Source: a virus. Taken from it: a DNA stretch of 21,123 nt. Location: positions 1 to 21,123 of the IMG/VR virus record IMGVR_UViG_3300017956_000170. The stretch is one strand, 5' to 3'. Shown here piece after piece: positions 2,083-14,761 of this stretch. Under the pieces are notes generated by a model. That model saw nothing but the letters and a program-made list of their open reading frames with translations, did no database searches and was not told where the DNA came from. The stretch's first letter is position 1, and every line of letters starts with the position of its first letter. Made by a program: the position numbers and the translations under genes.

Positions 2083-2133
2083 GATTTCTCGAACAATCGA
2101 GAAAAATATATAAGATGGACACTTGTATATTAA

Positions 2134-2262
2134 GGAATATTGTCCGGAAAGGTTAAACTTACCAAGAGGAAACTCGAAGATTGTTTAATTGAAGCCGACA
2201 GACATATCTTAAAATATCACAGTTGCGAGACAGTGTTGGGGGGTCACTCCCCCCATATTCCA
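2134..2262 (+). ncRNA. tRNA-like acceptor/T-arm element within RNA region
   Basis: GGAATAT (2134-2140) can pair with ATATTCC (2255-2261), a 7-bp acceptor-like stem followed by A as a discriminator. Directly inside the 3' strand is a T-arm-like hairpin, GGGGG-GTCACTC-CCCCC (2238-2254), with a 7-nt loop. About 97 nt lie between the two, including a GAG-GAAA-CTC hairpin. That is too long for an ordinary tRNA and too short for a tmRNA, and the loop lacks the canonical TTCRA sequence. A competing local hairpin, GGACA/TGTCC plus ATATT/AATAT (2117-2145), also uses the 5' strand. It is a fold hypothesis only. Confidence 0.3.
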
Positions 2263-2264
2263 CT

Positions 2265-2361
2265 AGGGAGCCGGAAGTATAACTAAATGTTGTATAGGGA
2301 TACAAAAATACTAAATGTAGTGATTAAGTATAAGTTATAACAAATAGGCTCCCTTTTTTTT
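2265..2361 (+). ncRNA. Branched small RNA element ending in U-tract
   Basis: AGGGAGCC (2265-2272) pairs with GGCTCCCT (2347-2354), followed by eight T's (2354-2361). Inside are TATAACT/AGTTATA (2278-2284 with 2333-2339), TTGTAT-AGGG-ATACAA (2290-2305) and ATACT/AGTAT (2308-2312 with 2327-2331). All stems are nested and compatible. The 3' end has the form of an intrinsic terminator, but with a branched RNA instead of a short loop. This could be the 3' end of a small RNA or the terminator of the 590-2082 operon. Confidence 0.5.
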
Positions 2362-2435
2362 ACGCCCTTGTTGGGAAGGTCCCAACTCGTAATAGCATTA
2401 TTTGAATAATGATACAACTAGTTGCGTGGCGTAAA
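2359..2435 (+). ncRNA. Cloverleaf-like RNA element
   Basis: TTTACGCC (2359-2366) pairs with GGCGTAAA (2428-2435). Within it are three consecutive hairpins: GTTGGGA-AGG-TCCCAAC (2370-2386), CATTAT-TTGA-ATAATG (2396-2411) and CAA-CTAG-TTG (2415-2424). The result is a four-way junction of 77 nt, the size and outline of a tRNA. The stem lengths and loop sequences do not match a tRNA, and no T-loop or anticodon loop of standard form is present. The function is unknown. Confidence 0.45.
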
Positions 2436-2438
2436 CAA

Positions 2439-2542
2439 CGACGAGCAAACGAGAGGGTATAATAGGATAGTCGGCTGTAGACTCGCAAGAGTTTACACTT
2501 TTGTCCGATACCCTCCCATCGTCGACTCTCTTCGGAGAGTCG
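2439..2542 (+). ncRNA. Long hairpin with GCAA loop, then UUCG hairpin
   Basis: CGACGA (2439-2444) can pair with TCGTCG (2519-2524), and GAGGGTAT (2453-2460) with ATACCCTC (2508-2515). Inside these, TCGG/CCGA (2471-2474 with 2505-2508) encloses TGTAGACTC-GCAA-GAGTTTACA (2476-2497), nine pairs including one G-U with a GNRA loop. The adjoining CGACTCTC-TTCG-GAGAGTCG (2523-2542) is a perfect 8-bp stem with a UUCG loop. Two of the most stable tetraloop types side by side strongly suggest a functional RNA. The UUCG hairpin shares two bases with the outer stem, so those two may alternate. Confidence 0.5.
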
Positions 2543-2578
2543 TATTCAAAATGGCTCAAAAAAAATTTCTTTTATGAT

Positions 2579-2607
2579 TTGCAATTAAATTCAATCTATG
2601 GTATAAT
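2579..2607 (+). promoter_or_regulatory. Extended -10 promoter for gene at 2636
   Basis: TTGCAA (2579-2584), a 17-bp spacer, and a consensus TATAAT (2602-2607) preceded by TGG. A start near 2614 gives a leader of about 22 nt carrying GAAAGGA before the ATG at 2636. This fixes the gene start at 2636 and excludes upstream in-frame starts. Confidence 0.75.
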
Positions 2608-2635
2608 GGATTATAACGAAAACGAAAGGAATAAA

Positions 2636-12854: not shown

Positions 12855-13598
12855 ATGAAAATTCGAGGAATTGAATTTAGAACAGATATTGAGGGGTTAG
12901 AAAAGACACATCCACCTCAATCATCAAACTTTTATATGCCAAAATGGTTCAAAACAATGCCATCTATAATAGAACAGCAACCAGAACCTAAACCACCTAA
13001 TTATTTTGGAAAAATAGGAGAAACTGCAAAACAATTCTATTCATTTACTGTAAAAAAATGTCCTGCCATTGTAGATTTCTTAACTCAAGGATATGTAATA
13101 CCTTTTTGGTGCGATATGCTTATACAAAGAGACCATATGATGCTTGAGTGGGACAATAAAGGTTTCCCATCTAAACTAGAATTTCACGATGGACAACAAG
13201 TAACACATTGGAAGTTTAAATCTACAGATTTTAAGACACCAGTTAAGTTTGAAAACCCTTGGCGTATATATACACCTAAAGGATATTCTGTAGCATTCTT
13301 TCAACCGGAATATCAGTTTGAAACAAGGTTTTCTGTATTACCGGGTGTAGTAGAAACTGATAATTATCATCAAGTACACTTCCCAGCAATCATTCACGAC
13401 ACACAAGATTTTGTAATTAAAGCTGGAACACCTTTCATGCAAGTTTTTCCTTTCAAAAGAAAACAACTTGATTTAGTTGTGGGTCAAATGACACAAGCTA
13501 TGAAAGATGAAGAATTAGAAAATAATGTATTTTTGAAGCAATACTTTAAAGAATCATATAGAAAGCTGTTAAAATGGAGAGGCAATGGCAAGATATGA
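12855..13598 (+). CDS. DUF6065-like protein, 247 aa
   Basis: A strong SD (GGGAGGG) precedes the ATG. Features include FYMPKWFKTMP near the N-terminus, TVKKCPAIVDFLTQGYVIPFWCDML (about 65-90, quoted here as the core around KKCPAIVDF and GYVIPFW), and a middle region of beta strands with PVKFENPWRIYTPKGYS. This combination resembles an uncharacterised family found in marine phages (I believe DUF6065), with strand-rich, cupin-like appearance. It has no signal peptide. It sits inside the head-to-tail operon but is not a known structural protein. The 3' end overlaps the FmdB-like gene. The family name is from memory and needs checking. Confidence 0.8.
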   Translation: MKIRGIEFRTDIEGLEKTHPPQSSNFYMPKWFKTMPSIIEQQPEPKPPNYFGKIGETAKQFYSFTVKKCPAIVDFLTQGYVIPFWCDMLIQRDHMMLEWDNKGFPSKLEFHDGQQVTHWKFKSTDFKTPVKFENPWRIYTPKGYSVAFFQPEYQFETRFSVLPGVVETDNYHQVHFPAIIHDTQDFVIKAGTPFMQVFPFKRKQLDLVVGQMTQAMKDEELENNVFLKQYFKESYRKLLKWRGNGKI

Positions 13599-13824
13599 TT
13601 ATAAATGTTCAAAGTGTGAATATGTGTTCGAGGTAACGCACTCAATACACGACGAACCAAAGGTGAAATGTGAAAAATGTAAAGCAATTTCTACTAGACA
13701 AATTAGCAATAAAGTATATCTTTACGGAACTGTTGGTATTGATTGGAATACTAACCCTAATGGTGCTTCTGAATCGATGAAGAAAAAAGCTAGTAAAGCT
13801 GCCAAAAGAAAACAACAGTTTTAA
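13585..13824 (+). CDS. FmdB-family zinc-ribbon protein, 79 aa
   Basis: MARYDYKCSKCEYVFEVTHS followed by KVKCEKCKAISTRQIS is the usual FmdB zinc ribbon: two CxxC knuckles about 20 residues apart, at residues 8-11 and 29-32. Family members are small putative regulators, common in bacteria and occasional in phages. The C-terminal half is a Gly/Asn turn region then a Lys-rich tail (KKKASKAAKRKQQF), which may bind nucleic acid. The start overlaps the upstream gene by 14 nt with GGAGAGG as SD. Its stop overlaps the stop of the convergent minus-strand SET gene. Role in the phage unknown. Confidence 0.85.
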   Translation: MARYDYKCSKCEYVFEVTHSIHDEPKVKCEKCKAISTRQISNKVYLYGTVGIDWNTNPNGASESMKKKASKAAKRKQQF

Positions 13825-14123
13825 ACAGAATAAGTTTTATAACCTAAAGTCAATTCCTCATCCGGCATAATATCTTTTGTCGTAATTAAATAAATATTTG
13901 GTCCTATGTCTATAAGTTCGCAGTTAGGGTCTTCACTATGATTCACAAAACCACCAAGTGGTGTTCTTATCATTCCGTGTTGGTGTTCAATATTTTTTAC
14001 GTGACTTAAACCTAAATTTTTACCTTTGTCTATTATTTGAGTGCTAAATAATCCAAGACCGTGTATTTCAGATTCACGGATAGTTAGATTTGACGGTAAA
14101 GGATAATATTTATCTTCTTCCAT
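13821..14123 (-). CDS. SET-domain protein (lysine methyltransferase-like), 100 aa
   Basis: A compact SET domain. Motifs: IHGLGLF (residues 20-26), the GxG that contacts S-adenosylmethionine; GGFVNHSEDPNC (57-68), the NHxxxPN core; KDIMPDEELTLGY (83-95), the ELTxxY motif with the catalytic-type Tyr at 95. SET proteins transfer methyl groups from SAM to protein lysines. At 100 aa it lacks most of the central insert and the post-SET cysteines, so it is near the minimum size. The ATG overlaps the upstream 41-aa ORF. It shares a minus-strand unit with the lysin. Possible targets are host or virion proteins; unknown. Confidence 0.85.
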   Translation of the reverse strand: MEEDKYYPLPSNLTIRESEIHGLGLFSTQIIDKGKNLGLSHVKNIEHQHGMIRTPLGGFVNHSEDPNCELIDIGPNIYLITTKDIMPDEELTLGYKTYSV

Positions 14124-14235
14124 CTTCTCTAGCCTCTAAACTTTTTAACAATTCATCGCTGAGTTTCCAATCAGAATTTGCTACTTCTAATCTTCTAAGT
14201 CTAAATTCTTTATAAAATCTTTTAAAACCCTTCAT
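14110..14235 (-). CDS. Small basic peptide, 41 aa
   Basis: A short ORF bridging two genes. On the minus strand its ATG (14233-14235) overlaps the end of the lysin gene and is preceded by GTGGAGAG, and its TAA (14110-14112) lies just inside the SET gene. The peptide begins MKGFKRFYKEFRLRRLEVAN and is basic and helical, ending EAREDGRR. Tight overlap with both neighbours and a good SD argue that it is real. It may also serve only to couple translation of the SET gene to the lysin gene. Function unknown. Confidence 0.6.
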   Translation of the reverse strand: MKGFKRFYKEFRLRRLEVANSDWKLSDELLKSLEAREDGRR

Positions 14236-14761
14236 CTCTCCACTTCTTTTCAAATTTCTTTACATCACCCCAACAAAACTTACTAGAATTCCAATCTCTC
14301 CATCTAGTTTTACTGTAGGTATCTTCAGCTAGTTTACTAGCCATCCATATATTGTAATAAGGATTAAATTGAATAGTTTCATATTTGAACCCTTCTCTTA
14401 CATAAAATTCTTGTTCTGGCAAAAATTCTAAAGGTATTCCAGAATATGTTAGTATCTTAGAATCAAATTCTGGAGCGTCAAACTTTTCTGCAATCCAGTT
14501 CCAAGTTGAAGGTATAAATTGCATGACACCCGAATCATCAGCAGATTTACGGTAAGCTGAAGATTTACCTCTAGATTCACACCAACCTATACGCATTGCT
14601 GTATATAAATTCTTTTCATCAAAATTTTCTACATAAATATGAACATATTCAATCATAGAACTTGGTATGACTTCAGTACATTCTCTGTAATCGTCTAGGA
14701 TTTCTGGGGTCATTGTAGAAGGCATCAAAGACGCCATAAATATCATACATTCAACTATCAT
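14222..14761 (-). CDS. Transglycosylase-like lysin (lysozyme fold), 179 aa
   Basis: The segment AMRIGWCESRGKSSAYR with SGVMQFIPSTWNW is the SLT/Rpf-type lysozyme-like core; E62 in WCESRG is the likely catalytic acid, and the GVMQF and STW motifs follow at 78-87. Later, FNPYYNIWMASKLAEDTY and the terminal WNSSKFCWG complete the fold, and Cys61 and the Cys of FCWG could form a disulphide. These enzymes cut peptidoglycan glycan strands, so this is probably the phage endolysin or a virion lysin. The N-terminus (MIVECMIFMASLMPST) is hydrophobic but lacks basic residues. An upstream leaderless ATG in another frame would supply them. Confidence 0.85.
   Translation of the reverse strand: MIVECMIFMASLMPSTMTPEILDDYRECTEVIPSSMIEYVHIYVENFDEKNLYTAMRIGWCESRGKSSAYRKSADDSGVMQFIPSTWNWIAEKFDAPEFDSKILTYSGIPLEFLPEQEFYVREGFKYETIQFNPYYNIWMASKLAEDTYSKTRWRDWNSSKFCWGDVKKFEKKWRDEGF

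Follow-up and report, generated by a model that had tools for sequence, protein, structure and literature searches.

A conserved structured RNA with a tRNA-like domain in an intergenic gap of a tailed-phage genome fragment

Locus, fold and extent of the RNA

The window, i.e. the whole stretch of DNA analysed, is the complete IMG/VR record IMGVR_UViG_3300017956_000170 (21,123 nt), a fragment of a tailed phage carrying genes for terminase, portal, protease and capsid. The source is an uncultured, probably marine phage; the top matches of the terminase among cultured phages are below 30% identity, and the DNA of the gap under study (2083-2635, 553 nt) gave no match to cultured phages. The gap sits between two intact + strand genes which are its conserved neighbours, an upstream gene encoding 242 aa (1354-2082) and a downstream gene encoding 86 aa (2636-2896), both without a known family. 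Elsewhere, the window encodes a 100-aa SET-domain protein (PF00856, E 1.9e-10; 13821-14123, - strand), adjoined by the gene for a zinc-ribbon protein (13585-13824), and a transglycosylase-like protein (SLT, E 1.3e-5; 14222-14761, - strand). The gap had been described as free of open reading frames, which needs qualifying at its 3' end, overlapped by a TTG-started frame (2501-2896); this frame is the downstream gene itself, read in frame, whose conserved start is the ATG at 2636, preceded by GAAAGGAATAAA. No conserved protein was found within the gap.

All the stems named in the original prediction are present: stems at 2265-2354 (AGGGAGCC/GGCTCCCT), 2359-2435 (TTTACGCC/GGCGTAAA) and 2453-2515 (GAGGGTAT/ATACCCTC), and hairpins at 2476-2497 (TGTAGACTC-GCAA-GAGTTTACA) and 2523-2542 (CGACTCTC-UUCG-GAGAGTCG). 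The + strand of the gap folds at -162.9 kcal/mol, far better than its dinucleotide shuffles (-119.0 ± 7.3 kcal/mol; z = -6.05; 0 of 100 as good), and the reverse strand has a z of -4.8. Across 16 related loci the mean z is -5.9 for the + strand versus -4.9 for the - strand, the + strand being the more negative in 13. In the variable stems of two of the modules described below, M2 and M3, there are 11 G-U departures and no A-C departures, which, together with paired stems changed on both sides, indicates an RNA read from the + strand. The gap holds a real, conserved + strand RNA structure. A replication origin, packaging site or other element acting at the DNA level, with hairpins functioning in single-stranded DNA, would suit the location upstream of the terminase and structural genes, but the 11 to 0 count marks a + strand RNA and the + strand folds better in most loci; this reading is disfavoured, and we consider it highly improbable.

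The proposal of a new structured RNA was borne out by the fold energy, by recurrence in relatives, by covariation (present in M2, M3 and M4) and by the absence of an Rfam match: Rfam 15 models, including those of GOLLD, ROOL, tmRNA and group I introns, gave no match at gathering thresholds in the whole window and, over 1950-2750, no meaningful match at E ≤ 10. None of the three contrary outcomes named beforehand (no covariation, a shuffle-like fold, a protein in the gap) occurred. No description of the RNA was found in the literature searched, which took in few subscription papers. Look-alikes of the group I intron elements P, R and S (GTTGCGGGA, GACTAAATG and GATATAGTC) were noticed by eye, but there is no Rfam match and no interrupted gene, and the S-like piece belongs to the M4 helix; a group I intron was rejected.

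The structured RNA proper is about 2087-2545 (~460 nt), ending near 2545; its modules are, in order, 5' hairpins, a tRNA-like domain, M2, M3, M4 and M5. The 5' hairpins (2085-2131, + strand; MFE fold and alignment A1) consist of TTTCTCG..CGAGAAA and a hairpin with UGGACACUUG in its loop, a motif recurring in relatives. The final 90 nt of the gap hold the promoter of the next gene (2579-2607, + strand; TTGCAA-17-TATAAT, its -10 preceded by TG), and the element stops before it, a limit the original prediction had overlooked. Similar promoters are found in relatives, and with a promoter of its own the downstream gene is independent of the RNA's transcript. A candidate promoter for the RNA, found by consensus scan (2051-2080, + strand; TTGTGA-18-TAAAAT), overlaps the end of the upstream gene and would set the start near 2087; it is weak in the window (p about 0.1 versus shuffles).

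Orthologous gaps between the same two genes were found in related phages by searches with the terminase and the upstream protein. A scan with the 3' strand of M4 (GATACCCTCCCATCGTCG) as probe gave 38 viral-contig stretches, 25 distinct by sequence, with similar surroundings. A separate scan with the M2 core motif gave 19 contigs, all also on the M4 list, indicating that M2 goes with M4 and that the association is not made by the M4 probe alone. Bacterial (host or prophage) copies were rejected, the five genome matches to the M4 18-mer sitting in unrelated sequence, and so were the extra matches of a relaxed M4 pattern, all of them surrounded by unrelated sequence.

The tRNA-like domain and tag-less tmRNAs

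The original prediction had seen no identifying motif; it overlooked that the 5' third of the RNA is a tRNA-like domain of 132 nt (2134-2265, + strand) with acceptor and T-arm geometry. The domain has the general elements of tRNA-like structures: a 7-bp acceptor stem, GGAATAT (2134-2140) with ATATTCC (2255-2261); a T-arm, GGGGG-(G)TCACT(C)-CCCCC, directly 5' of the acceptor 3' strand and stacked on the acceptor; and an unpaired N73 tail, here A73 at 2262 and then CTA. A D-arm-like helix is formed by TGTCCGG (2141-2147) with CCGACA (2195-2200). The acceptor stem is 97% paired in the related phages versus 52% when strands are swapped between phages, its first pair is G1-C72 in 16 of 16 domains examined, and the remaining positions covary; the T-stem is 95% paired versus 67% with swapped strands. 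A strict acceptor and T-arm search places the domain at this position in the window locus, with any match in 5 of 100 shuffles, and detects the same geometry in L006, L011 (twice), L017 and five type B loci (any match in 1-8% of shuffles); in L015 and in types C and D the domain departs from this geometry and was recognised by eye. The tail reads N-CTA or N-CGA, except for two with N-CTT; in types A-C, the loci in which the domain, M2, M3, M4 and M5 follow one another, it abuts the next stem. ARAGORN called no tRNA or tmRNA in the window and 32 related loci, and the standard anticodon arm is absent. G3-U70 together with A73 is the alanine identity set for AlaRS; G3-U70 followed by A73 is present in the domain of L015 and in the second domains of L010 and L011 (L010b, L011b), and the window domain has A3-U70 instead, and CTA rather than CCA.

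Several sequence motifs vary in position around the domain. Between types A and B (the window locus, L038 and others), the UGGACACUUG hairpin and the motif GCGGGACA swap sides of the 5' acceptor strand, as if the domain were permuted. The motif UUGCGGGACAG or GCGGGACAG recurs in L034, L056, L038, L039, L017 and L136: it lies inside the tRNA-like domain in L017 and ahead of it in type B, sits in a hairpin preceding M4 in type D, and belongs to the apical part of a mini-tmRNA in L136. The invariant M4 strand AUACCCUCCCAUCGU has complementary stretches within the domain, at up to 14 of 15 positions in type B (L038, L039, L044, L057) and 9 of 9 in type D (L020) and L011; this complementarity is absent in the window.

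Also overlooked by the original prediction was a tag-less tmRNA domain in two relatives. Directly behind its first domain, L011 carries a second one (2244-2326) matching the Rfam tmRNA model RF00023 at 42.1 bits (E 1.9e-13), and L010 has one in the same slot (1273-1353; 33.0 bits, E 6.7e-10); both scores are below the gathering cut-off of 47 bits, with E ≤ 1e-9. These second domains (81-83 nt) are complete tRNA-like domains without a tag-coding part, and the tmRNA-type domains of the relatives in general (79-83 nt) leave no room for one. Further tag-less tmRNAs lie elsewhere in the genomes of close relatives, one of them at 48.6 bits, above the Rfam cut-off. The second domains of L010 and L011 reach 61-65 bits with the tag-less tmRNA model, both being part of its training set, and the L017 domain matches it weakly and in part (23.9 bits, E = 0.007). 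The window domain has no match to the model built from tag-less tmRNAs (R1; top score 5.9 bits), none to RF00023 at gathering in the whole window or at E ≤ 10 over 1950-2750, and none to the tag-coding mRNA-like part, and it departs from the tag-less tmRNA signature (GGGGCUGA..T-arm..CAGCUCCAC with G3-U70). Its location hints at a kinship with tmRNA. A search of 16 related contigs detected no SmpB gene, so any SmpB partner would be the host's.

A strict pattern located 72-84-nt tag-less mini-tmRNAs in 45 viral stretches (e.g. L042:4605-4683, L054:300-380, L055:4565-4643, L099-L140), and those tested all go uncalled by ARAGORN. Lying some hundreds of bases away from one mini-tmRNA, L093:2018-2294 (- strand) has a sub-threshold match to alphaproteobacterial tmRNA (21.7 bits, cut-off 50). 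Among cultured phages, two candidate places, in Pseudomonas phage PA_L9 and Microbacterium phage Vitas, are not claimed as tag-less tmRNAs. In a published survey, DS6A is the one phage example of a tag-less tmRNA; the DS6A RNA is reported to inhibit endogenous tmRNA in E. coli, and organelles too have tag-less tmRNAs (PMC11915505, the last citing Mao et al. 2009).

Modules M2 to M5

M2 (2266-2361, + strand) has the closing stem GGGAGCC/GGCTCCC, an inner stem ATAACT/AGTTAT, a multibranch core with the conserved ACTAAATGTAGTG, nearly invariant in relatives, and a terminal U-run. The closing stem, curated by hand like those of M3, is 100% paired versus 79% in the control with strands swapped between phages; both sides changed in 4 of 7 columns, with 5 G-U and no A-C departures. 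In many relatives this GC-rich stem, closed round a near-invariant core, runs into a stretch of 6-8 U and could be taken for the terminator of a cis-acting regulator (a leader, riboswitch or attenuator). Nevertheless, the downstream gene is set apart from the RNA by a promoter of its own, L017, L038 and L039 have a U-run that is interrupted or out of place, and no riboswitch family of Rfam matches, making a cis-acting role improbable. The core ACTAAATGTAGTG resembles a stretch of tmRNA 3' halves; a full or permuted tmRNA, considered because of this likeness, was rejected, the order of the parts being wrong and no model matching.

M3 (2359-2435, + strand) is closed by the stem TTTACGCC/GGCGTAAA and contains the inner hairpins GTTGGG..CCCAAC and CATTATT..AATAATG; its hand-curated closing stem is 98% paired versus 60% with strands swapped between phages, with changes on both sides in 7 of 7 columns, 6 G-U and no A-C departures. 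An extra M3-like module is inserted before M4 in one relative (L054:4534-4684).

M4 (2440-2523, + strand) is built of GACGA/TCGTC, GAGGGTA/TACCCTC and GTCGG/CCGAT, then a variable apical stem with a GNRA or UUCG-type loop; its 3' strand GATACCCTCCCATCGTCG is common to about 25 phages, and the apical stem has compensatory changes in 7 of 7 pairs. M5 (2523-2545, + strand; alignment A2), the hairpin CGACTCTC-UUCG-GAGAGTCG with the conserved GTAT, is the 3' end of the conserved RNA and shows one A-U to G-C compensatory pair (10 of 24 sequences). Over M4-M5 in alignment A2, 95.5% of cells are paired versus 86.5% in shuffles, and the covariation score is 0.227 versus 0.086 (0 of 500 as high), in a shuffle control that ignores sequence relatedness; sliding the pairing partners, the control that corrects for relatedness, destroys the signal. 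Two other roles were considered for this region. A small-RNA gene at M4, equipped with a -10 of its own (GGGTATAAT, with GTCGG 6-9 nt downstream), would lack a -35 and is not claimed, its -10-like TATAAT lying in or beside a helix; and an anti-Shine-Dalgarno role of ACCCUCCCAUCGU was rejected, its complement being matched in the window by nothing but the other strand of the element itself.

The many stacked closed modules, the size and the phage origin are compatible with a large ornate scaffold of the GOLLD/ROOL kind that would assemble into RNA-only multimers, with the tRNA-like domain as a guest: palindromic M3 elements (CATTATTTAAATAATG) could pair between molecules, and GOLLD linkers sometimes hold phage tRNAs, both GOLLD and ROOL occurring near tRNAs (PMC12286853). 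The failure of the GOLLD and ROOL models to match at E ≤ 10, and the absence of M2 and M3 from most type D loci, leave such an assembly distinctly unlikely.

Possible function and comparison with known RNAs

As to function, we infer a dedicated phage noncoding RNA in which the tRNA-like domain would act as a mimic engaging host tRNA-handling factors and M2-M5 would form a stable scaffold; this is the reading we prefer, tentatively and at somewhat less than even confidence. The RNA would be transcribed separately, from a promoter located where the upstream gene ends; possible partners are RNase P or RNase Z, elongation factor Tu, and the tmRNA partners AlaRS and SmpB. In at least some relatives, the tag-less tmRNA in the slot would be expected to act as a competitor of host tmRNA, dampening trans-translation in the infected cell; as the window domain lacks the tmRNA signature, only the broader reading as a tRNA mimic applies directly to it. 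Mimicry is supported by the fold and strand data, the G1-C72 pair in all 16 domains, the adjacent T-arm and the N73 tail with CTA/CGA, the tmRNA domains of L010 and L011, the alanine identity set of L010b, L011b and L015, the further tag-less tmRNAs of close relatives, the DS6A precedent, the downstream gene's own promoter and the promoters of types B and D, which have TTGACT-16/17-TATAAT or TAAAAT over the end of the upstream gene (p ≤ 0.005 versus shuffles). Against it count the dissimilarity of the window domain to tmRNA (with A3-U70 and CTA), the weak promoter in the window, the lack of an SmpB gene in the 16 related contigs and, in types D and E, the small ORFs flanked by the domain on one side and M4-M5 on the other.

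This last arrangement bears on the main rival to mimicry, in which the domain would form the 5' end of a single transcript unit, either as a shield protecting it from 5'-end-dependent decay or as a signal for processing by RNase P/Z, with M4-M5 as the transcript 3' end and, as cargo between them, small ORFs (types D and E) or M2-M3 (types A-C), serving stability or maturation of the transcript. Type D (L020, L034, L042, L056, L064) supports it: there, and in L068, the domain follows the upstream gene and M4-M5 lies about 1 kb downstream, with small ORFs of no known family in between. The type D promoter TTGACT-16-TATAAT sets the start at, or a few nucleotides from, G1 of the domain, and M4-M5 closes the unit after 3-4 small ORFs; the fixed NCTA/NCGA linker by which the domain 3' end abuts the next stem and the downstream gene's own promoter are also in line with it. 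However, the type C domain and the upstream gene's stop codon overlap, with no promoter found by the scan at the 5' end of the domain, M2-M3 are strongly conserved yet have no coding capacity, and the tmRNA signature of L010 and L011 exceeds the needs of a shield. We rate the 5'-end structure as unlikely. Returning to mimicry, its bolder form, in which tRNA-like or tag-less-tmRNA cassettes would be exchanged on a conserved M2-M5 scaffold and act against host ribosome rescue as a new multi-domain RNA class, is doubtful.

An undescribed phage RNA family here joins the few large noncoding RNAs known from phages, and it offers a functional lead of a kind still wanting for GOLLD and ROOL: a tRNA-like domain, accompanied in two close relatives by a tag-less tmRNA, which hints that the RNA may interfere with the host tRNA or ribosome-rescue machinery. 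The analysis also suggests that tag-less tmRNAs, missed by ARAGORN, are more widespread in viral contigs than the single reported phage (DS6A); phages may thus often interfere with trans-translation, in a way that is open to test.

Among the closest known systems, phage tRNA genes share the acceptor/T-arm geometry with G1-C72, but the window RNA has no standard anticodon arm and, like the 32 related loci, no ARAGORN call. With tmRNA (RF00023) it shares an acceptor and T-arm domain without a decoding anticodon, and the second domains of L010 and L011 match that family significantly, whereas the window RNA has no tag reading frame, no pseudoknot ring and no match to the model. GOLLD and ROOL are likewise large, ornate, phage-encoded noncoding RNAs; the window RNA is smaller, has another module order and matches neither covariance model (1950-2750, E ≤ 10). 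The tag-less tmRNAs of DS6A and organelles are tmRNA-type domains without the coding part, phage-encoded in DS6A, such a domain being present in the slot of L010 and L011 and elsewhere in other relatives. With its 132 nt the window domain exceeds these in length; it carries neither G3-U70 nor the tmRNA sequence signature, has CTA in place of CCA, and is joined to some 280 nt of additional structured RNA.
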